The position numbers and the translations under genes are program-made. Positions 7,681-16,064 of a stretch of DNA of 16,064 nucleotides are shown one piece after another. The number at the start of each line of letters is the position of its first letter. Within the stretch, counting starts at the first letter, position 1. A model generated the notes under the pieces. The model saw only the letters and a program-made list of their open reading frames with translations. It did no database searches and was not told where the DNA came from. Source of the stretch: Prevotella sp. (lineage in GTDB: Bacteria > Bacteroidota > Bacteroidia > Bacteroidales > Bacteroidaceae); the NCBI GenBank assembly GCA_017442765.1, contig JAFRZC010000180.1:1-16064 (forward strand), read 5' to 3'.

Positions 7681-10600
7681 CTGAGAACAAATTTTTTACC
7701 TTTAGTGACATAAATGGGGGTGCAGGGGTGCGAAGGTACGGGGGTGCGAAGTGCGAGGTTGCGGCCTTGCAGGTCGTAGAGGGATAAGGGATGAGAGATG
7801 AGGGATGAGGGATTGTTACTTTCATCCTTAATTCTTAATCCTTCATCCAGAATCCCCGTTGTGTTATCGATGGTGAGCGATGCCTTTGCCGTTCCCCCGT
7901 CGGCGGCGTATGCGGTGATGGTGGCCGTGCCTTGCTGGTGGCGGGTGATGGTGCCTTGCTCGTCAACGGAGATGATGTCGGGGTTGCTGCTTTCCCAGTG
8001 AAGGCAGGTGTTGGTGGCATCGGCGGGCAGGATGGTTGCTTCAAGTTGTTGCGACTGTCCGACGGCGCAGTTGGCCTCAGCGATGGCGATGCTCTTGACG
8101 GTGATGCCGCCTGTCTGGTAGCAGAGGATGTTGTCGAAACGAGCCTCCAGTTGTTTTTTTGTAAGTGCCGGCCGCGAGGGTTGCCAGTTGCCCTTCACCA
8201 CGGCCACCTGCTCGTTGTCCACGAGGATGTGCACTCCGTCGGCCTCGCGGCGCGAGCGCAGGTGATAGCCTGCGGAAAGGTCCTCATGAACATAGACGCA
8301 GAAGGGTCGTGCTGCCGTTCCCGACTTTGTTTGCAGGTAGAGTCGCACGGCCGAGGTCTTCACTGGCGGGAAGGTATAGGTGTTCATCTCGCTCAGTCTG
8401 GGCTCGCCTTGTAGCGTGGCCTCCACCTTTTTCCATGAGTTTCCCTCCTTCACCATCACGACGACGCGCGACGGCAGGTCGAACGTCTGGCTCAGATAGG
8501 GATAGCTGCCCTCTAACCACAACACGTCGATGCCCGACACCTCGGTCTCGTGGCGCAGTTCATAGACGTAGGAGGTGGTGGGGTAGGTGCTGGTTGGCGA
8601 GAAGGAATACTGCCGCATGGTTTTATGCTTGAGCGGCAGCGACAGTTGCTCGGTCGCCGTGCCCTGCTCGCAGGCTGTCACCTTGAGGCACTTCTCTGCA
8701 TAGTCGATGGTAGCCCGCACATAGTTGTCCTCATCTACATAGACGGGATAGAATCCCGCCTCGCCCGAAGCCGGGATGCTCCCGGCATCCATGTCGGCGG
8801 AGAACTCGTAGTTCCAGCACGGGTCGCCTTTCGCGCGGATGGTCTCCTCGCCGTTCTGCCACTCTTCCCAGCCGCAGATGCCGTCGCCCCACTCGTCCCA
8901 TCCTGTGGTGTATTGTATGGCGTCGAAACTGACGGTCGGCGCGGAGGCCACGAGCCCCACCGTACCTTTGGCGGTATGGCCGATGTTGATGTCGCCGTCG
9001 GTGGTGAGGCACATCTCGTCGAGCATCACGCGCAGGCGGTCGTGGTTTCTGTAGATGGTCAGCGTGTGCCACGGCTCGTCGTAGCCGGACGCGAGGGGAT
9101 GGTCTTCGAGGAAGCTGAACTTCGCGGGCAGGTCTTTCCGGGCGGTTTCGCTGATGCCGTCGGCGCAGTTCGTAAGCCGCCATTTGCCCTCGCGTCCTAT
9201 CTCCACGCGCGTCCAGTTGCGCTCGTCGGCGTAGAAGGCGTAGGCACCGCCCCAGTCGTCGCTCCCCGCGAGGCGCAGGGGCACCTCGAAGCGGTAGTTC
9301 GTCTCGGCAGGCTTTCGCAAGAGGAGCTCGCCGCCCGCCGCGTCCGTAGGCGACATCACCTTGTCGGCCACACGCCATTTGCTGTTGTTCAGGAACTGGA
9401 AGGGGTGGTAGATGGTGTAGTCGAGGTAATTGATGAACGTGGGTTGCGCCGGTGCCGGATGGTAGCCGGGCGTGCCCTTCACGGTGGCCTCCACCACAGG
9501 CTCGGTGCCGAAGAAGTGTATGCGATCGATGCTCTGCTGCTCTACGCCGTCGATGAACGCCTTATAGACCATCCATCGCTCGAAGCCGCCCGGGCCGGCG
9601 ATGAAGTTGGGCTGAGCCGGACCAATCATGGCGGGGTACATGTCGGCCTCGCCCGATCCGTAGAAGCCGAAGTCGATGAGCTGCTGGCTGGAGCTCGACG
9701 TGTTGCTGCTCACTCCGGCCACGGCCACGACGTTTTCTCCTGTCTGCAGCCACGACGGGTCTATCGTGCGCACGGAATAGGTGTTGTGGTTTGAGGTCAC
9801 CTTTATCTCGTGGCCGTTGATATAGAAGGTTGCCGTGCCGTTCACCCATAGTTTCATGCTCACGTGTGCGGGCACCTCGTCGAGGGTGAGCCGCCGGCGT
9901 ATATAGATGTTGTTGGTTTTCCAGAATGTCTTTCGCGCCCGTACCCTCGCGTTGGTCATCGTCGTGCCGGAATACAGGTCGAACTCCTGATAGCCGAATC
10001 CGCCCTGTCCCGCCGTCCACGACGAGTCGTCGTAGCCGGCCGCCGTCCAGTCGCCCGTCGGAGTCGTCGTCAGGTAGCGTGCGTCCCAGCCGCCATGCTC
10101 GGCGGTGGGGGCGATGGGTGTGAAGTCGATGAGCTGCTGCTCGGTGTTGCGGGTGAGCACGGGATGCGGCAGCTTCTTCGCGTTAGAGAAGTTCATCGGC
10201 TGGTCGCTGACGGCGCAGCCCACCTGGTACATTCCTGAGCGCGGCCCCATGCGGTTCACGGCATAGAAGATATAGTAGTTGTCGTGGTAGCGTGCCATCT
10301 CCGGACCCTCGAAGTTGATGTGGTTCAGGCTTGTCGGGTGTCCGCGCTGGTGAGTCATCTGCACGCGGCCCTCGGTGATGTCCCAGCGCGAGAAGGGCGA
10401 GTTCATGCGGAACGCCCACACCTCGGGGCCGTCGATGTTGCTGGCCGCGCCCGTCATGGGGTGGGGGTCGGCGGGGTTGCGCTTCTTCACCCAGTAGATC
10501 TCGCCGTCCTCGTCCTGGAATATTTGCACGTCGATACCGTAGTCGTCGAACGGCTCCGCCAGCGTCTGCTCCTTGTAGCTGCCTTGCGGCTCGGCGCAGT

Positions 10601-10940
10601 AGGCATGACCGATGCCGTTGAAATAGCTGTGCCACACGCCGTTCCGATAGAGCAGGTCGCCCGCGCCCACCTGCTTATAGGTGGAGGCCTGCGTCCACTT
10701 CGGATTGTTGAGCCACGTTGCGCCGTCGGTGGTGACGGCTTTCACGGGATTCGACCACGAGACCATGTCGCGCGACCGGTAGATGGTGCCCTGCGTTCCG
10801 CCGCCCATGGCGTAGTAGTAGCCGCGATGACGCTCTATGCAGCCGTCGCGCATATTGAGCACGGGGTTGATGAATTTCTGCTGGGCCGTTGCCGACAGCC
10901 AGGCTGCTGCCGCTATGACGGTGAGGTTACGTATGTTCAT
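7677..10940 (-). CDS. Large secreted multidomain GH43 enzyme with T9SS-type tail
   Basis: The frame is open to 11138, but the start is taken as the ATG at 10940 because a signal peptide follows (MNIRNLTVIAAAAWLSATAQ) and the promoter box lies at 10965-10972, inside the longer frame. The product is 1087 residues. The GH43 propeller has D32 (RDG), D137 (GIDVQ) and E211 (NFEGPE) as probable catalytic acids. A galactose-binding-like beta-sandwich (about 282-430) appears inserted before the last blade, which resumes at GPAQPNFIAGPGG (440-452). Next come a concanavalin-like domain (about 505-680), a second one (about 683-950) that seems to hold a discoidin/F5-8C-like domain (about 786-885), an Ig-like BIG2 domain (947-1026), a low-complexity linker (1029-1053) and a tail (YDLQGR...KGKKFVLR) like type IX secretion signals. 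It is first in the operon. The GH43 call is confident; domain borders are approximate. Confidence 0.88.
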   Translation of the reverse strand: MNIRNLTVIAAAAWLSATAQQKFINPVLNMRDGCIERHRGYYYAMGGGTQGTIYRSRDMVSWSNPVKAVTTDGATWLNNPKWTQASTYKQVGAGDLLYRNGVWHSYFNGIGHAYCAEPQGSYKEQTLAEPFDDYGIDVQIFQDEDGEIYWVKKRNPADPHPMTGAASNIDGPEVWAFRMNSPFSRWDITEGRVQMTHQRGHPTSLNHINFEGPEMARYHDNYYIFYAVNRMGPRSGMYQVGCAVSDQPMNFSNAKKLPHPVLTRNTEQQLIDFTPIAPTAEHGGWDARYLTTTPTGDWTAAGYDDSSWTAGQGGFGYQEFDLYSGTTMTNARVRARKTFWKTNNIYIRRRLTLDEVPAHVSMKLWVNGTATFYINGHEIKVTSNHNTYSVRTIDPSWLQTGENVVAVAGVSSNTSSSSQQLIDFGFYGSGEADMYPAMIGPAQPNFIAGPGGFERWMVYKAFIDGVEQQSIDRIHFFGTEPVVEATVKGTPGYHPAPAQPTFINYLDYTIYHPFQFLNNSKWRVADKVMSPTDAAGGELLLRKPAETNYRFEVPLRLAGSDDWGGAYAFYADERNWTRVEIGREGKWRLTNCADGISETARKDLPAKFSFLEDHPLASGYDEPWHTLTIYRNHDRLRVMLDEMCLTTDGDINIGHTAKGTVGLVASAPTVSFDAIQYTTGWDEWGDGICGWEEWQNGEETIRAKGDPCWNYEFSADMDAGSIPASGEAGFYPVYVDEDNYVRATIDYAEKCLKVTACEQGTATEQLSLPLKHKTMRQYSFSPTSTYPTTSYVYELRHETEVSGIDVLWLEGSYPYLSQTFDLPSRVVVMVKEGNSWKKVEATLQGEPRLSEMNTYTFPPVKTSAVRLYLQTKSGTAARPFCVYVHEDLSAGYHLRSRREADGVHILVDNEQVAVVKGNWQPSRPALTKKQLEARFDNILCYQTGGITVKSIAIAEANCAVGQSQQLEATILPADATNTCLHWESSNPDIISVDEQGTITRHQQGTATITAYAADGGTAKASLTIDNTTGILDEGLRIKDESNNPSSLISHPLSLYDLQGRNLALRTPVPSHPCTPIYVTKGKKFVLR
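7777..7853. repeat. Low-complexity GATGAGGGATGA repeat inside the GH43 gene
   Basis: The plus strand carries short tandem units of GGGATGA type (7779-7812), followed by pyrimidine units ATCCTTAATTCTTAATCC and TTCATCC (7822-7848), making an imperfect inverted arrangement. It keeps the reading frame open and encodes the linker between the BIG2 domain and the C-terminal tail. The same words occur in the arms of the intergenic inverted repeat at 11151-11341. Confidence 0.7.
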
Positions 10941-10964
10941 ATCGGTTTGTGGAAATTTGCGTGG

Positions 10965-10972
10965 CAAAGATA
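10965..10972 (-). promoter_or_regulatory. Promoter -7 box of the glycan-degradation operon
   Basis: The minus strand reads TATCTTTG, a perfect Bacteroidetes -7 box, 24 bases upstream of the ATG at 10940. The -33 region is poor (no TTTG about 20 bases upstream), which would suit a promoter needing an activator. It decides the start of the large GH43 gene. Confidence 0.7.
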
Positions 10973-11150
10973 GCCGATTATTAGTTCCCGGGCGGGTAAA
11001 ATTGTTCGGAATAAGGGTAAGAATGGCTTTTTCTGCGTTTTTACTCGTGTTAATTAGTCTTAAACAGAGCATGAGGATTTTAACAAATTCTGTCTGGATT
11101 TTTTCCAATTCTGGAGCGCGAAACCACCCCTTTTCCACCCTTTCACTCCT

Positions 11151-11204
11151 CTTTTATACCCTCATCCCTCTTCTTTCATCCCTCATCCTTTCCCAAACAT
11201 ATAT
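11151..11204 (+). repeat. Left arm of the 54-base inverted repeat around copy A
   Basis: A pyrimidine-rich arm made of CTCATCC and CTTCTTTCATCC units and ending CCCAAACATATAT. It is the reverse complement of 11288-11341 with one mismatch by eye. The two arms enclose 83 bases. Confidence 0.85.
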
Positions 11205-11297
11205 GTTTCGGGTCGCAAAACACGGTCTTTCGGGGTGCGAAAGACGGTCTTTCGCAAGGCAAAACATATATGTCTCGCGGGTGAGAGATATATGTTT
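11199..11297 (+). repeat. Dispersed repeat core, copy A (99 bases)
   Basis: Matches the reverse complement of 15929-16027 at 97 of 99 positions with no gaps. It begins and ends with ATATATGTTT and contains a third ATATATGT near 11266. Inside are three words, GTCTTTCG (11225-11232), CGAAAGAC (11238-11245) and GTCTTTCG (11247-11254), so the middle can pair with either neighbour. Neither copy contains a coding sequence. Confidence 0.85.
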
Positions 11298-11341
11298 GGG
11301 AAAGGATGAGGGATGAAAGAAGAGGGATGAGGGTTTAAAAG
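11288..11341 (+). repeat. Right arm of the 54-base inverted repeat around copy A
   Basis: Purine-rich arm starting ATATATGTTTGGGAAAGG and continuing with GATGAGGGATGA units. It is the inverted partner of 11151-11204, with one mismatch. Confidence 0.85.
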
Positions 11342-11362
11342 GGGCTTATGGGTCTGAGTGTC

Positions 11363-11383
11363 AGCGACTTGACGAAAGTCGCT
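11363..11383. repeat. 8-base-pair perfect hairpin
   Basis: AGCGACTT (11363-11370) and AAGTCGCT (11376-11383) pair perfectly around a 5-base loop. It lies between the core and the 59-base module of copy A. No T-run follows directly on either strand, so a terminator role is unproven. It is absent from copy B. Confidence 0.65.
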
Positions 11384-11388
11384 CGTGA

Positions 11389-11447
11389 TTGAAAAATTTA
11401 CGGCCACGCGATTTTTCGTGGAAAAATCTTCATTCTCCGCGTTAAAA
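11389..11447 (+). repeat. 59-base module of the composite repeat, copy A
   Basis: Matches the reverse complement of 15787-15845 at 57 of 59 positions. Its centre forms a hairpin, GATTTTTC (11410-11417) with GAAAAATC (11421-11428), and an overlapping CCACG/CGTGG alternative. It lies 91 bases from the core. In copy B the same two parts are 83 bases apart with unrelated sequence between them. Confidence 0.85.
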
Positions 11448-11496
11448 GAAATCGGGCAATCGTTAACAGATGTAAAAATTGGAGGGTTCTGATGGG

Positions 11497-11967
11497 TCAC
11501 TCCACCCACTCGGCTTTGCGGGTGATTTCGTCCTCCTGATAGTTGAAGGTGCTCTCGGGTTCGAGCGAGAGGAGTACACAGCCGATAATCTGTTCCACAT
11601 CCTCGACACCCTTGGCGGTCTCGCGCTCGTGGAGGTAGATGTTGAAGGTGTAGGGCTTCTCGGTATCGACCTCCCACGTGCCGCGAAGGATGACCTTGTT
11701 GCCGTCGGCATCCATCGTGTGGTTGTCGTAGTCGCCGTTGCCGTAGAAGGTCTCCACGCCCCGGGGATAGTCGGACAGCTCTTTCCCCTGCTCCTCGTAT
11801 TTCCATGAGCCGATGACGAACGCATCCCACTTGCTGGTGGCAGCGATACTGTTCTTGGCTTTATCCTCCTGTTCTTTCTGCTCGCCTATTTTCTTGGCAA
11901 ACTTGATAATATCGAGGCAGCTTGTGAGCAGCAATGCACAGGCTGCAAATGCAAGAATCTTCTTCAT
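11497..11967 (-). CDS. Small lipoprotein of unknown function
   Basis: A 156-residue protein with a lipoprotein signal peptide; the lipobox LLTSC puts the lipidated cysteine at C17, so it is membrane-anchored. A short charged helix follows (about 20-45), then a beta-rich part with spaced motifs IGSWKYEE, GNGDYDNHT and LRGTWEVD, somewhat like lipocalin-type barrels. I do not recognise the family and give no function. It is the second gene after the duplicated-motif protein, starting 3 bases after that gene's stop, with a strong Shine-Dalgarno sequence within the last codons of the upstream gene. The two products are probably made together and may work together at the envelope. Confidence 0.85.
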   Translation of the reverse strand: MKKILAFAACALLLTSCLDIIKFAKKIGEQKEQEDKAKNSIAATSKWDAFVIGSWKYEEQGKELSDYPRGVETFYGNGDYDNHTMDADGNKVILRGTWEVDTEKPYTFNIYLHERETAKGVEDVEQIIGCVLLSLEPESTFNYQEDEITRKAEWVE

Positions 11968-11970
11968 GGT

Positions 11971-12669
11971 TTATTTCCTCCTTTTGTTTTTATAGTCTCT
12001 GATGCCAGCCTCGGCCTCGCGCAGCAAACCTTCGTATTGCCCTTCCATGCCGGCTTCGCGCAGGGCGGCCCGGGCGGCTTCTATCTGTTTCTGGGCTTCG
12101 TCCACGTTCATGTCGCCCTCGCGTAGCTTCCGGTTGATTTCCTCGTCGCCGGGGATACCCGCTCTCTTGTTTTTCTTCATCTCGGCAGCCGTCTTTTCGT
12201 CTAGTTCCTTGTCCGACTGCTTGAGAATTTCGGCGAGGGTCTTGTTGCCTGTCGTGGTCAAAAACGGAAAGGAGGTTGACGAGAGCCAGTTGGGTTCTTT
12301 CTTTTTGAGCCAGCTCTTATCCGACGAGCCGTCGGGCTTGTCGCGACCGAGGAAATTGCCCATGCCGTCTTTCCACACGAAGCAGCCACGTTTCTTGTCC
12401 CACTCCTTGTGCACACCCATGAGGTCTTTGCCCTCTTGGGTGATGTTCTCGGCAAAGTAGTCTTCGTCGATGGCATGAAGAGGCTTTGAGTCTTTCACGT
12501 CGCAGAGGTAGCTGCCCATGCCGGTCTTCCAGACTTCTTTCTTCAGTTTCTTGTCCCACTCCTTGTGCACGCCAGGTGCATCCTCGTTCACATAGTTAAT
12601 GGCTCCGGCCGTAAGCGGAAAGGCTAAGGCCACCGGCAACAGGGCCAGAATCATGCTAAATTGTTTCAT
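11971..12669 (-). CDS. Secreted protein with a duplicated GVHKEWDKK motif, unknown function
   Basis: The open frame extends up to 12753, but a perfect promoter at 12723-12754 lies inside that extension, so the start is the ATG at 12669. This gives 232 residues with a signal peptide (MKQFSMILALLPVALAFPLT...). Two 23-residue repeats, 33-55 and 85-107, share 16 identical positions: GVHKEWDKK, then VWK, GMG and a final Leu, a 52-residue period. The C-terminal third (about 145-232) is highly charged and probably helical or coiled-coil (DEEINRKLREGD, IEAARAALREAG). I do not recognise a family. It leads a two-gene unit with the lipoprotein downstream. Confidence 0.8.
   Translation of the reverse strand: MKQFSMILALLPVALAFPLTAGAINYVNEDAPGVHKEWDKKLKKEVWKTGMGSYLCDVKDSKPLHAIDEDYFAENITQEGKDLMGVHKEWDKKRGCFVWKDGMGNFLGRDKPDGSSDKSWLKKKEPNWLSSTSFPFLTTTGNKTLAEILKQSDKELDEKTAAEMKKNKRAGIPGDEEINRKLREGDMNVDEAQKQIEAARAALREAGMEGQYEGLLREAEAGIRDYKNKRRK
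11977..11982 (-). promoter_or_regulatory. Strong Shine-Dalgarno site for the lipoprotein gene
   Basis: The minus strand reads AGGAGG, 9 bases before the ATG at 11967. The same bases encode the Arg-Arg near the end of the upstream protein. Such strong sites are uncommon in Bacteroidetes, where most genes start without one. Confidence 0.65.
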
Positions 12670-12722
12670 AGTTTTTTCGGTTTTTTTGTTACAATGTCTA
12701 AGGTAGAGACCAATATCGGGTA

Positions 12723-12754
12723 CAAAGATATGGTTTTTCATCCATAAAACCAAA
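12723..12754 (-). promoter_or_regulatory. Promoter of the duplicated-motif protein and lipoprotein unit
   Basis: On the minus strand TTTG (12754-12751) is followed after exactly 20 bases by TATCTTTG (12730-12723). This is the best match to the Bacteroidetes -33/-7 consensus in the window. It starts 17 bases after the dprA stop and leaves a leader of about 45 bases. Confidence 0.85.
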
Positions 12755-12771
12755 TATCACAGGCCATATTT

Positions 12772-13893
12772 TTATACCATCAGGTGGTAAACCCCACCGG
12801 CGAGGTTTTTGATGACACCCTTCATCTCGAGCGAGAAGAGCACAGCCGTGAGCCGACCGATGGGGATGCCAGTCTGTACGGAGAGCATATTGATTTGCAG
12901 GTCGTTGGTACGTTGGAGCGTGCCGACCACTTGCCGTTCCTCGTCGGTGAGGTCGGGGAAGATCTGCCGCTCTATGCCTTGCCGCTGTGCTTCTTGCAGT
13001 GTGGCGGCGGTCTGCCAACCCATGCTCTCCACGAAGTCGCGGGCAGAGGTGATGAGGGCAGCCCCGTTGTTGCGGATAAGGTTGTTGCAGCCCTCGCTGT
13101 AGGGTGCGCCGACGGCTCCGGGGAAGGCGAACACGTCGCGGTTGTAGTCGCGGGCGATACCGCAGGTGATGAGGCCGCCGCCCTTGGCCGCGCTCTCCAC
13201 GAGGATGCATGCGTCGCTCATGCCGGCCACGATGCGGTTGCGCCTGACGAAGTTCACTCTGTCGGCTCTCGTCCCCGACGGATACTCGGTCAGCAGTCCG
13301 CCATTTCTCACCATTTCATCGGCGGTCTGCCGGTGTCGGGGCGGATAGAGGTCGTCCTGTCCATGCGCGAGCACGGCCACCGTGGACATGCCGTTCTGCA
13401 AGGCATGGCGATGGGCGCAGATGTCGATGCCGTAAGCCAGTCCGCTCACGATGAGCGTCTGCGGACAAAGGGCGCGCAGCTCTTGTGTAAAGCGGCGGAT
13501 GAGGTCTTCGCCATAGACGGTGCTGTGGCGCGTGCCCACGATGCAGACGACATGCTGCGGGTTTAACGTGGCCGAGCCTTTATAATAGACGACCAGCGGG
13601 GCATCGTCGCACTCGCGCAGCCGCAGCGGATAGTCGGTGTCGTTCATCGCCAACGGCCTGATGCCGTTATGCTCGCAGAACTCCAGCTCAGCCTCGGCAC
13701 GGCGGAGCGGTTCATCGACATTGGCAAGTGCCTCCATGAGCCGGTCGGAGGCATCGGGCATCATGTCGCGGATGTCGCGGCGGTGCTCCATGACGGCCGT
13801 GGCCGAGCCCATGCGACGGTAGAGCTCGAGCATACCCGCCAGGGAAAAATAGCTGACGCGGGTCAGCGCAATGGCATTTAAGATTTCGTTCAT
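12772..13893 (-). CDS. dprA: DNA processing protein DprA (Smf)
   Basis: DprA binds incoming single-stranded DNA and loads RecA during natural transformation; it is also common in bacteria not known to be competent. The 373-residue product has an N-terminal helical region, the Rossmann-like DNA-processing domain (about 80-285) and a C-terminal winged-helix (DML1-like) domain (about 315-370). Diagnostic motifs are VGTRHSTVYG (119-128), SGLAYGID (150-157), NFVRRNRIVAG (214-224), FPGAVG (257-262) and GCNNLIRNNGA (268-278). The start overlaps the TGA of the thioesterase gene (ATGA, 13890-13893), indicating translational coupling. The small hairpin over its stop (TACCA/TGGTA, 12775-12789) is too weak to call a terminator. 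Confidence 0.95.
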   Translation of the reverse strand: MNEILNAIALTRVSYFSLAGMLELYRRMGSATAVMEHRRDIRDMMPDASDRLMEALANVDEPLRRAEAELEFCEHNGIRPLAMNDTDYPLRLRECDDAPLVVYYKGSATLNPQHVVCIVGTRHSTVYGEDLIRRFTQELRALCPQTLIVSGLAYGIDICAHRHALQNGMSTVAVLAHGQDDLYPPRHRQTADEMVRNGGLLTEYPSGTRADRVNFVRRNRIVAGMSDACILVESAAKGGGLITCGIARDYNRDVFAFPGAVGAPYSEGCNNLIRNNGAALITSARDFVESMGWQTAATLQEAQRQGIERQIFPDLTDEERQVVGTLQRTNDLQINMLSVQTGIPIGRLTAVLFSLEMKGVIKNLAGGVYHLMV

Positions 13894-14291
13894 AGGAATT
13901 TGGCAAAGGCGCGGTCGTAGTCCTCGGAATTACTGAGCCTCCCGTTGATGAGGCACACCAGCTCGGCTGTCGCGCGGAAGCAGAGCTGTTCGTCGGAGGC
14001 GCGGTAGATGTCTTGATAGAAGATGTAGCGGATGCCCTCTTTCTTGAGGTTCAGCCGCGAGAGGAACTCGTCGTCGCAGCGCAACGGCTGCTTGTATTGC
14101 ATGTTCATGCGTGCCACCACGGCATCGATGCCCCGGCTGTGCAGCTCGGCAAAGCTCACGCCGAGGCTTTTCAGGAAGAGGTGGCGCGTGTGCTCGATGT
14201 AGTGCAGGTAGTTGGCGTTGTTCACGATGCCCTCGATGTCGCACTCATAGTCGCGCACCTCCATGCGGGTCTCAAAAATATAGTCTTTCAT
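13890..14291 (-). CDS. Hotdog-fold acyl-CoA thioesterase (4HBT, YbgC/FadM-like)
   Basis: A small cytoplasmic thioesterase that hydrolyses acyl-CoA or related thioesters. The frame is open from 14369, but the first 26 residues (SRPQTNTESRDAACRPQKSD) are not hotdog-like and overlap the preceding gene. The ATG at 14291 gives 133 residues, the usual size, starting MKDYIFETRMEVRDYECD. The active-site helix region is CDIEGIVNNANYLHY (17-31), with D18 in the place of the conserved catalytic Asp, followed by the long hotdog helix (EHTRHLFLKSLG). It sits 67 bases after the DUF2851 gene and overlaps the dprA start by 4 bases. The substrate cannot be predicted. Confidence 0.87.
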   Translation of the reverse strand: MKDYIFETRMEVRDYECDIEGIVNNANYLHYIEHTRHLFLKSLGVSFAELHSRGIDAVVARMNMQYKQPLRCDDEFLSRLNLKKEGIRYIFYQDIYRASDEQLCFRATAELVCLINGRLSNSEDYDRAFAKFL

Positions 14292-14358
14292 ATTCTCTGG
14301 CTTATCACTTTTCTGGGGGCGGCACGCCGCGTCCCTACTTTCCGTGTTTGTCTGTGGT

Positions 14359-15705
14359 CTACTTTTCACTCAGCAATGCCACGGCGGCGTTTTTATGTTT
14401 TGAGGAGATAAACTCGTAGCCGATGCGGCAGCGCAGGCAGTCCTTGCGTTCGCAATACTCGCGTCGCAGCTGGATGAGTGCCTGCGAGTCGCCGGCATTG
14501 CTGGCCGTCAGCCCGCATTCGCGCCATAGGCTGACAATGTGGTTGTGCTCGGCTTTCAGTTGTTCGAGAAAGTCGAACGCACGGTCGCAGAGATGGTCTT
14601 TCCGTGTATGCCGGCCGTATGCGAACAGCATGGGCACAATGGAGTTCACCATGAGTAGGTCGAGCGAGGCCGCCGACAGCCGTTTCTCGCTTTTCCTGCT
14701 TTCCGCCCCGAAGGTATAGTGGGTCTGCCAATAGTCTGACACCTGCGTGGCGAGCATCTTCTTCGCCTCTTCAACGGTCTCACATTCCATTAGGTTGCGC
14801 AGTCCTGCGCGTCGTGAGCAATAGAGGTTGGCCAGTTGCGAGATACGGATGTTGGGAAAGTTCTGCGGGCGCAGCCGGAGATACCGCCAAAGTTTAAAAT
14901 TCATCGGTTTCATCGAGAATTTATGAGCCAGATAGCGGTATTCGGCGGATAGCCTCTGGTAGTATTCGTCGGCCTGGGCTGCCTCGCGGTGCTGCCGGGG
15001 CAGGGCATCGGGCGAGAGCATTCCGGCCTGTCCGAAGAAGATGGCCTCTATCTGGAAGAGGTTGTCGCGGTGGTGGGCGCAGGCATCAAGCGGCACGGCA
15101 CCGGCCCATGCCTCGAACGCGTCGCCGTTGATGCCGAAGCCGAAGTTGCGGGCCAGTGTCACGAAGAAAGCCTGCTCCCATGAGCCGTTGGCTTGCTCGG
15201 CCCTGTGGCGTATGGCCTCGGTCTTCTGCTCAAGCCGTTCAGCCTGCAAGGCGCTCATCCACGAGTGGAGCATCAGCGGCGACAGCTCGGGGATAATCTG
15301 ATAGCAGGGGGGATAGCGGTCTTCGGCCAGCAGTCGCTCATAGTTGCGCGTCACCTCTTCGGGCACCGTCACCTGCAACTGCGCCAGCCGCTTTCCGGCT
15401 TTGGTGACCACGTCGGTGTCGATGATGCCGCACACATGCAGGATGACATTGTCGTAGGCATCGTCGTGCTGATGGCCATGGGCATACCAGTCGCCGGCCC
15501 TCTGGTGTATCTCCACATTGCCCACCCACAGCGTGCCGTCCAGTTTTATCTTGGCATTGAAGAAGTCGGGACCGCTGTCGCGCCGGTTGTAGAGACCGGG
15601 GTCGATGATCTCAACCTGCTGCCCGTCAGTGGTTGTCAGTCCACCGGCCGGCAACAAGCGGTGTTTCCATACATAGTGCAACAGCTGTTCCTGCTTCCGC
15701 ATCAT
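14359..15705 (-). CDS. DUF2851 family protein
   Basis: A 448-residue protein of a family that I know mainly from Bacteroidetes and that has no established function. The N-terminal domain carries the family's conserved pattern: GLYNRRDSGPDFFNAKI (37-53), WVGNVEIHQRAGDWYAHGH (60-78) and DNVILHV (85-91). The middle is helical. Near the C-terminus four cysteines cluster, C397, C418, C423 and C426 (in EYCERKDCLRCRIG), suggesting a metal or iron-sulfur site. There is no signal peptide, so it is probably cytoplasmic. It is first in a unit with the thioesterase and dprA and has its own promoter 17 bases upstream. MM at the start leaves a one-codon ambiguity (15705 or 15702). Confidence 0.88.
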   Translation of the reverse strand: MMRKQEQLLHYVWKHRLLPAGGLTTTDGQQVEIIDPGLYNRRDSGPDFFNAKIKLDGTLWVGNVEIHQRAGDWYAHGHQHDDAYDNVILHVCGIIDTDVVTKAGKRLAQLQVTVPEEVTRNYERLLAEDRYPPCYQIIPELSPLMLHSWMSALQAERLEQKTEAIRHRAEQANGSWEQAFFVTLARNFGFGINGDAFEAWAGAVPLDACAHHRDNLFQIEAIFFGQAGMLSPDALPRQHREAAQADEYYQRLSAEYRYLAHKFSMKPMNFKLWRYLRLRPQNFPNIRISQLANLYCSRRAGLRNLMECETVEEAKKMLATQVSDYWQTHYTFGAESRKSEKRLSAASLDLLMVNSIVPMLFAYGRHTRKDHLCDRAFDFLEQLKAEHNHIVSLWRECGLTASNAGDSQALIQLRREYCERKDCLRCRIGYEFISSKHKNAAVALLSEK

Positions 15706-15721
15706 CGTTCACAATAAGTTG

Positions 15722-15729
15722 CAAAGATA
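15722..15729 (-). promoter_or_regulatory. Promoter -7 box of the DUF2851-thioesterase-dprA unit
   Basis: The minus strand reads TATCTTTG, 16 bases before the ATG at 15705, leaving an almost leaderless transcript. The -33 region (GTTCC near 15747) is a weak match. Confidence 0.7.
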
Positions 15730-15786
15730 ATATAAAATCGGTGGAACACTCTTTTTTAATACATTATTTAACAATTCACTTTTTCA

Positions 15787-15845
15787 TTTTAACACAGAGA
15801 ATGAAGATTTTTCCACGAAAAATCGCGTGGCCGTAAATTTTTCAA
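15787..15845 (-). repeat. 59-base module of the composite repeat, copy B
   Basis: Reverse complement of 11389-11447 with two differences (CTCTGTG against CTCCGCG). The GATTTTTC/GAAAAATC hairpin is intact (15806-15824). Confidence 0.85.
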
Positions 15846-15928
15846 CCATGCGTGTGCAGTTGGTTAGCCCCCTAAATTAGAGGGTTGGGGGTCTTCAGAG
15901 CGGCAAGTGTGCAACTTTCCGTTTTGCG

Positions 15929-16027
15929 AAACATACATCTCTCACCCGCGAGACATCTATGTTTTGCCTTGCGAAAGACCGTCTTTCGCACCCCGAAAGA
16001 CCGTGTTTTGCGACCCGAAACATATAT
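15929..16027 (-). repeat. Dispersed repeat core, copy B (99 bases)
   Basis: Reverse complement of copy A at 97 of 99 positions. The two differences lie in the second and third ATATATGT-like words. Unlike copy A it is not enclosed by a long inverted repeat: the sequence outside the core differs completely, though the right side is again purine-rich on the plus strand. Confidence 0.85.
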
Positions 16028-16064
16028 CTTTCAGAAATGTGAGGTGAGAGGTGAGGGGTGAAAA

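Follow-up and report, generated by a model that had tools for sequence, protein, structure and literature searches.

The two inverted repeats in the 16,064-nucleotide stretch of Prevotella sp. DNA analysed here (the window) belong to a family of modular repeats interspersed in the genomes of a few Prevotellaceae. Each has a core of five dyads, AAAS-N5/6-STTT, with centres 22 bp apart, and this spacing is conserved while the sequence differs, both across species and within one genome. We propose, at a probability of about one half, that the array is a curved wrapping or binding platform within a mosaic repeat of the BIME or BOX kind, a candidate function read from sequence.

The element around 11199-11447 (+) is called W1 and the inverted copy around 15787-16027 (-) W2. 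The earlier note had described a two-part repeat in inverted copies, and this stands: core 11199-11297 and the reverse complement of 15929-16027 agree in 97 of 99 positions, and module 11389-11447 agrees with that of 15787-15845 in 57 of 59. The intervening 91 and 83 bp are, as claimed, unrelated (alignment score -12.0 against -13.7, sd 3.5, in shuffles; 80 of the 83 bp used).

W1 may begin at 11050-11121 (+), which by eye weakly resembles the class II left end (TTAATTnGTCTTAAA ...) of a near relative, the MAG RUG12198 (G002); a left-end model from three G002 copies matched nowhere in the window. Its core is flanked by a 62-nt inverted repeat, 94% complementary, of which 11148-11209 (+) comprises a pyrimidine-rich left arm and the start of dyad 1, and 11283-11344 is the partner. 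The five-dyad W1 array, 11193-11303 (+), includes the 99-base core; nhmmer with the G002 array model places it at 11193-11297 (E 7e-24), a two-dyad pattern matches at 11196-11230 and 11218-11252, and the last dyad was assigned by eye. A purine-rich right arm of GGATGAGGG type (11304-11344, +) is followed by a class III connector that carries TTATGGGTCTGAGTGTCAGCGACTTGACG as its motif (11354-11431, +; E 6e-5 with a model built from three training copies; motif score p=0.005), and the module, 11382-11473 (+), is the right end of class II elements (nhmmer E 1.7e-7, G002 module model).

W2, on the minus strand, has a pyrimidine-rich arm (16033-16064) cut off by the window end, then its own array of five A/T dyads with a 22-bp period (15923-16032; nhmmer 15927-16032, E 7.7e-24, and pattern). 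Its class II connector, recognised by eye at 15852-15914, has a layout that recurs in nine G002 elements: TTGCACAC (15907-15914), a variable slot (15860-15906) containing a GACCCCCAACCCTCTAATTTAGGGGGCTAA palindrome, and a second copy, CTGCACAC (15852-15859). The module lies at 15762-15858 (nhmmer E 1.8e-10, G002 module model). A third, degenerate 22-bp array, overlooked in the earlier note, lies between argS and a sulfatase gene (2524-2614, +; nhmmer E 1.4e-6 with the G002 model, and pattern). With up to two mismatches allowed, the window holds five matches to the two-dyad pattern where 0.01 would be expected; 2555-2589 is one of the five. The elements are intergenic and, as had been supposed, have no evident coding capacity: the mechanical ORFs overlapping them (10837-11316 +, 11183-11830 - and 15633-15836 +) were not accepted as genes, and 11183-11830 overlies, in a different frame, a better gene candidate at 11497-11967 (-).

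G002 shows how these parts are assembled. A profile model found 31 array loci in the 793 kb covered, which extrapolates to about a hundred array sites per genome. Its elements consist of a five-dyad block, commonly flanked by one arm rich in pyrimidines and one rich in purines, and interchangeable connectors link this block to one of three or more sets of ends; the best-aligned copies are 395-463 bp long, with ends visible in the alignments. The reading as a composite whose parts are conserved around a replaceable segment, beyond a simple MITE, is borne out by this family. The predicted co-occurrence of core and module also held: a standard array lies no more than 250 bp from four of the six G002 modules, although three of these four had served to train the model, and the two remaining modules adjoin a different array of about 22-bp period. 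Core and module as a composite was only half right, since the pairing is real but the module is just one of several alternative ends, with 6 module loci against 31 array loci in G002. Among 119 relatives of G002, the module on its own matched just once, and weakly (E 0.006 over 27 bp); it was recovered only with models of diverged copies. The changeable cargo slot needs a similar correction: a slot does take different contents, but the spacers are connectors of two recurring types, not random cargo. Exchange of small palindromes was seen solely in the slot of the W2-type connector. The W1 connector motif is absent beside arrays of genome G423 (0/8) and of viral contigs (0/4) and is not significant at W2.

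Dyad spacing is retained in the family even where the sequence differs. In G002, 120 spacings were 22 bp, with at most one at every other value from 10 to 40. With 18-26 bp allowed, all 41 spacings in G016 and all 27 in G423 were 22 bp, and P. nigrescens had 20 at 22 and one at 23. The inner AAA-to-TTT distance is set by the search pattern; the 22-bp peak is independent of it. All 43 distinct G002 arrays, examined where a regular expression found at least three strict dyads, fit five dyads in 106-108 bp by a score tolerating mismatches, with some exceptions; two further loci are short, at 72 bp. Dyad number varies elsewhere, from 3 to 5 in G016 and 3 to 7 in G423. BLAST with the W1 array gave nothing at E<=1e-3 in the stretches of G016, G423 and P. 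nigrescens (150 kb), all of which have 22-bp arrays. Within G002, two elements with class II parts bear a different array (spacings 21, 22, 22 and 22, 22, 22), one of them having both class II ends and the other the module.

The family occurs in a few Prevotella-type bacteria of gut and mouth, with 22-bp arrays in rumen and other Prevotellaceae. Only 13 of 399 genomes of the taxonomic family had at least 12 tile-pair matches on a strand; all others had at most 8. This patchy distribution, with copies missing beside related genes, suggests turnover. No match to W1 was found in plasmid and phage collections, nor any to the central palindrome in viral contigs. A three-dyad 22-bp pattern did occur in 17 viral-contig stretches, P. 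nigrescens-like arrays included, some of which, judged by eye, may be repeats within phage genes. None of 29 tested G002 arrays overlapped genes called by our own script, and none of 12 in P. nigrescens lay inside a CDS annotated in the incomplete PLSDB gene table. The 19 of the 29 that could be oriented showed no bias relative to flanking genes (6/5/5/3).

On average, an AAA or TTT tract comes every 11 bp. The 11-bp phase score is 0.95 against 0.34 in shuffles, a score that is partly built in because the search pattern fixes the inner AAA-to-TTT distance. For A-tracts of only 3-4 nt, predicted curvature reached z<-3 in 30 of 43 G002 arrays against 6% of 170 G002 intergenic controls. The z values were -2.3 for the window arrays, -2.8 for G016 and -4.2 for P. 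nigrescens. Curvature alone cannot be the conserved property, because G423 arrays keep the 22-bp period at a predicted z of +0.07, that is, uncurved. In four data sets of 13-23 distinct dyads each, the dyad interiors were not complementary beyond about 2 sd, the largest excess being for S-S in G002 (0.73 against 0.54, sd 0.10). At position 6, 425 of 430 G002 half-sites carry G or C, yet this position pairs in only 20 of 43 arrays in slot A and 14 of 43 in slot E. Positions 7 and 8 covary in slots B, C and D of the G002 arrays because whole palindromic centres are exchanged, which suits dimer sites or hairpins.

We favour a curved wrapping or binding platform because the dyad interiors are not clearly complementary and the A/T tracts recur every 11 bp. 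The five-dyad block would act as double-stranded DNA, with its A/T tracts on one helix face, so that a segment of some 107 bp would be curved or readily wrapped. A wrapping or bending protein could use this segment, for instance a nucleoid protein of the HU kind, or else DNA gyrase, as is the case for BIME-2 of E. coli and the Mu SGS; alternatively, a row of dimers of some binding protein might occupy it. Arms and connectors would be extra palindromes assembled around the block. We counted for the platform the spacing kept across differing sequences, the five-dyad block, the non-hairpin interiors, the 11-bp phase score, the predicted curvature, the intergenic sites, the absence of orientation bias and the periodic flanks of the E. 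coli gyrase motif, and against it the uncurved G423 arrays, the 3-7 dyads outside G002, the short A-tracts, the partly built-in phase score, the covariation in slots B, C and D and the very stable W1 fold as RNA. A more specific form can be put forward only tentatively: the repeat may be a wrapping cassette in which selection keeps the helical phasing of 22-bp A/T dyads while sequence is freely exchanged, and which positions a nucleoid protein or topoisomerase. Within a genome the exchange would proceed by cassette swap, and sequence would differ freely between species as well.

A real possibility, though one we lean against, is a non-autonomous MITE- or BOX-like element moved in trans, whose array would be either neutral or a set of repeats bound by a transposase. 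The many copies, alignable over a limited length with visible ends, and the patchy distribution fit this, as does W2 itself, which lies upstream of DUF2851 where G001 and G002 have no copy; BOX repeats have also been judged parasitic mobile elements in the available text of PMC3049150. The DUF2851 site is no clean empty site because the upstream neighbour of W2 lies beyond the window end, and no exact empty site was found, neighbouring genes differing or lying outside the data. In an alignment of 11 G002 elements from three classes, no terminal inverted repeats (inner inverted arms do exist) and no target duplications were seen by eye, at ends uncertain to a few bases, and the ends differ among the classes. 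A simple MITE was rejected. PINSR elements also lack terminal inverted repeats, and about three quarters of PINSR regions are common to two P. intermedia strains, according to the passages available of PMC4755523. A G016 pair, L171/L189, at 99% identity, was rejected as an insertion: the two lie in a duplication that extends into 16S rRNA (identified by eye). Mobility through a RAYT (Y1 tyrosine transposase), with the arrays as its REP elements, is very unlikely. Of eight genomes searched that bear arrays, five had PF01797 above cut-off, but so had four of eight array-free ones; G412, G479 and G427 have arrays and no match, and none of eight fetched Y1 loci (2.8-3.4 kb each) has a tile array. 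The RAYT-REP candidate was rejected on these two grounds. Two of the Y1 loci, read by eye, bear other small repeats.

Another possible but rather doubtful explanation has every dyad bound specifically by a dimer of a single putative DNA-binding protein, perhaps mobile or partition-like. A 22-bp period puts dimers on one helix face with no need for a special DNA shape. The nearly invariant AAA/TTT half-sites, freer centres and strict phasing would follow naturally, as would the uncurved G423 dyads and the restriction of rich arrays to so few genomes. On the other hand, half-site contexts differ among species, half-sites this short would confer little specificity, and PF01797 was the sole candidate protein family looked at. 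Transcript hairpins acting as terminator, mRNA stabiliser or processing site seem improbable. The W1 strand (11140-11450) does fold stably (z -12.6; W2 -2.6), its arms are complementary and the slot B, C and D centres covary; yet the interiors are not clearly complementary, A-E pairing covaries at only one of 18 positions, orientation is unbiased, and Rfam gave no family at gathering score, with just snoRNA and miRNA matches below it at a permissive E. A recent local duplication in the source genome, which the earlier note had thought likelier if only two copies existed, can be practically dismissed. The 97/99 identity of the cores would suit it, but core and module models from another species match both copies, and the core matched in all six genomes picked up by a palindrome scan, whose array counts are inflated by near-palindromes counted on both strands. 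Nor is the pairing of core and module a matter of chance.

Few firm functions have been assigned to interspersed palindromic repeats in the decades since they became known. In this family a physical parameter, the 22-bp phase, persists among several versions that share no sequence similarity, so that one can test directly whether selection in such repeats acts on sequence, on RNA structure or on the shape of the DNA. The platform reading would also supply a structural explanation for PINSR.

The earlier note did not recognise a described family; PINSR of P. intermedia and P. nigrescens is probably the same kind of element, its architecture appearing alike. PINSR is 188 bp long, intergenic and probably without coding sequence, with 177 and 184 copies in two P. 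intermedia strains (PMC4755523, in part). It shares with our elements a Prevotella host, intergenic position, high copy number and lack of terminal inverted repeats. In P. nigrescens, a PINSR carrier, a 22-bp-dyad element is alignable over 205-209 bp, near the PINSR length, and we infer that this array is PINSR. The window elements are longer and mosaic, and their W1 array finds no P. nigrescens counterpart by BLAST; the available part of the PINSR description does not mention 22-bp dyads. We do not file them as PINSR because 22-bp arrays extend beyond the P. intermedia/nigrescens clade. 

Like the BIME/REP repeats of enterobacteria, present in hundreds of copies (PMC3049150, in part), the family is an intergenic mosaic of palindromic units, but no RAYT link was found for it, and it has a single strict period in the block and other sequences. 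BOX of Streptococcus is likewise a modular A-B-C composite, and in S. suis alternative end modules surround the same boxB (PMC3049150, same passages); boxB number is variable, whereas the G002 arrays examined have five dyads and those of G016 and G423 have 3-7, and period and sequences differ from BOX as described there. BrickBuilt of Porphyromonas gingivalis, also in Bacteroidales, is intergenic with leader, tandem short units and tail, but the available description gives 23-nt direct repeats in 1-22.8 copies with IS5-type TIRs (PMC4596501) rather than 22-bp dyads with freer interiors; a GAGACC-type TIR had one two-mismatch match in the window (14770-14781), below chance, and none near the elements. 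Gyrase sites, which include BIME-2, share a helically phased AT/GC alternation across about 100-130 bp (PMC6379681, in part). The E. coli gyrase motif has two flanks with 10.75-bp periodicity around a 36-bp centre, whereas the arrays described here keep about 11.0 bp throughout.

The window's two composite repeats, W1 (11199-11447) and the inverted W2 (15787-16027), are best read as copies of an interspersed mosaic repeat built around a constant, helically phased block of DNA, putatively a platform for wrapping, bending or binding. Re-alignment in the window bore out the earlier note on both inverted pairs and their coordinates, with the cores identical at 97 of 99 positions and the modules at 57 of 59. 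The spacers of 91 and 83 bp, which it had called unrelated, do align with each other no better than shuffles, but they are two standard connectors (the segments between array and end), since W1 carries one of class III and W2 one of class II. Using models built from copies in G002 (MAG RUG12198) alone, the array matched W1 at E 7e-24 and W2 at E 7.7e-24, the module, which is the right end of class II elements, at E 1.7e-7 and 1.8e-10, and the class III connector in W1 at E 6e-5. W1 therefore consists of arms, array, class III connector and module, and W2 of array, class II connector with slot, and module. A third, degenerate array lies at 2524-2614 (E 1.4e-6), and the class I and left-end models matched nowhere in the window. 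Recombination between the near-identical inverted cores (11199-11297 and 15929-16027) might invert the 4.6 kb between them, which carry dprA and DUF2851.

The central palindrome TGCGAAAGACNGTCTTTCGCA matched 10 stretches of the genome_contigs collection, all titled Prevotella, Prevotellaceae or Marseilla massiliensis. The core matched in all six genomes behind them, 28-78 times each, counts that are inflated by near-palindromes scoring on both strands and that come from at most 40 candidates per genome. By argS DNA the window's nearest relative among 399 sampled family genomes is G002 (83%); a red deer MAG outside that sample, G001, is 81% identical across 4.2 kb elsewhere. G002 served as the anatomy reference, with 793,098 bp scanned and additional loci fetched. 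The window's argS (562-2346) is itself split: a stop codon ends the N-terminal part (1897-2346) shortly before the remainder (562-1881), and argS Pfam domains occur in both. Either the assembly is wrong here or the gene copy is broken.

In G002 a single modular plan is common to 25 core loci viewed with their flanks, 24 of them distinct, and to 44 array loci. The array, within which the core lies, is a row of dyads (AAAS-N5/6-STTT) centred 22 bp apart, and five dyads across 106-108 bp fit 43 distinct arrays; the script demanded five, none of the 44 loci was discarded for having fewer, and one was a duplicate. In three arrays (C3_53849, C13_39093 and L067_3123) the last called unit is no dyad and a full dyad stands on the left instead, the L064 array has a degenerate fifth dyad, and C15_36924 has a possible sixth. 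A model scan of 793 kb found 31 array loci, two of them short at 72 bp. Many copies have a pyrimidine-rich left and a purine-rich right arm. There are at least three sets of ends, and the eight longest pairwise alignments span 395-463 bp. An array lay within 250 bp of 11/11 class I left, 11/11 class I right, 3/3 class III, 4/5 class II left and 4/6 module loci, an agreement partly built in, as the end models were trained on 3-5 copies from array flanks. Both module loci lacking a standard array bear a different one: in C21 it lies between class II left end and module (spacings 21, 22, 22), and in C4 it adjoins the module (22, 22, 22).

The class II connector is laid out as TTGCACAC - slot - TTGCACAC. 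By eye, the slots of nine G002 elements held an AGACCCC...TTAGGG palindrome (five), the CGCGGCACGCCGCG type (two), the CATCCCTC type (one) and another sequence (one). The GGCGGCACGCCGCGTCCCTAC palindrome, which also occupies the slot, stands between DUF2851 and a thioesterase gene in the window (14319-14341) and at the same place in G002, where two other genomes (G412 and G003) have dyad arrays. A GGATGAGGGATGAG arm-type repeat runs in frame at 7782-7814, within the part of a GH43/Big_2 gene that encodes the protein's C-terminal region (SSLISHPLSLYDLQGR), adjoining what is presumably a T9SS-like sorting domain; G002 has a similar one close to the end of a gene (L114:2980-3012). The neighbourhood of such C-terminal sorting domains is perhaps a hotspot for small repeats.

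The phase is strict. With all spacings of 10-40 bp allowed, the 22-bp distance between dyads occurred 120 times in G002 and no other distance more than once; the reversed-sequence control likewise peaked at 22 bp (35 times), a result of the near symmetry of the units. Allowing 18-26 bp, all 41 spacings in G016 (15 arrays of 3-5 dyads) and all 27 in G423 (eight arrays of 3-7) were 22 bp. In 150 kb of P. nigrescens the count was 20 at 22 bp and one at 23 bp. Single-locus arrays, with 20-24 bp allowed, gave 21.5-22.5 bp in G010, G427, G479, G180, G315, G216 and G232, and 22 and 23 bp in G260. Dyad number varies outside G002. BLAST with the W1 array, the whole W1 element and a G002 element as queries gave nothing at E<=1e-3 in the stretches from G016, G423 and P. 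nigrescens.

Interior pairing is weak: in none of four data sets did complementarity inside the dyads exceed about 2 sd. In G002 arrays 425/430 half-sites have G or C at position 6, which nonetheless pairs poorly (20/43 in slot A, 14/43 in slot E). The exchange of whole palindromic centres does make positions 7 and 8 covary in slots B, C and D. For phase at 11 bp the A/T tracts score 0.95 and shuffles 0.34, the inner distance being partly fixed by the search pattern. Under a wedge model the arrays of G002, G016 and P. nigrescens are predicted to be curved, those of the window moderately so (z -2.3), and those of G423 not to be curved. The elements are intergenic, with no orientation bias relative to genes among 19 orientable arrays.

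Between species the distribution is patchy. With the tile-pair pattern, 13 of the 399 family genomes reached 12 or more hits on a strand and the remainder no more than eight, with practically none in G287, G246 and G065, among the nearest argS relatives; the pattern's backward control was mostly 0-10, except in G002 (20/20) and G431 (28/22). An exact two-dyad pattern across 326 Bacteroidota genomes hit G002 239 times, G156 11 times and the others 0-2 times. The G156 hits represent a second type of dyad (AAAC-N5-GTTT), likewise spaced at 22 bp. A strong core match was restricted to G002 and, weakly, G010 (399 genomes, two candidates scored in each). The connector motif TTAACnnRYTGAYTGACAGYRRWTTA, derived from 18 G002 connectors, did not recur beside G423 arrays (0/8), viral-contig arrays (0/4) or at W2. 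It recurred at p<=0.05 beside 7/12 arrays in G016 and 4/8 in P. nigrescens, and to the right of W1 (p=0.005), and the composite plan therefore seems to predate a single species.

Two serious rivals are that the array is an operator row and that the repeat is a mobile element. The latter concerns spread and is compatible with a phased platform; both can be true together. The arrays are unlikely to be the REP elements of a RAYT, the transposase linked to such repeats; RAYT matches occur in array-free genomes also. Two Prevotellaceae Y1 transposase genes have their own flanking small repeats (GGCCTCGAAGAGG at L164, GGGCAACGCCCTG at L165) and are perhaps RAYT-REP systems distinct from the arrays. 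The window itself opens with a C-terminal piece of an ISL3-type transposase (PF01610, 2-283). Returning to the phased block, we infer that it is curved in solution, has a protein partner and serves a function.

Among known repeats, the closest comparison is PINSR. In the open-licence literature we found one paper on it and none on 22-bp-phased dyads in Prevotella. That paper describes a 188-bp intergenic repeat without TIR, in 177 and 184 copies, carried by P. nigrescens among others and of unknown function (Naito et al., PMC4755523). One array from a viral contig (L220) has 13 matches in a P. nigrescens replicon, and an element there, alignable across 205 bp between two copies, bears 22-bp dyads. 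PINSR is thus probably of the same kind as the window repeats, a likeness drawn from carrier species and dyads. For the phased block itself, PMC6379681 has E. coli gyrase favouring flanks phased at 10.75 bp and BIME-2 elements as gyrase sites; by this likeness, gyrase or an HU-like protein would be the first candidate partners.
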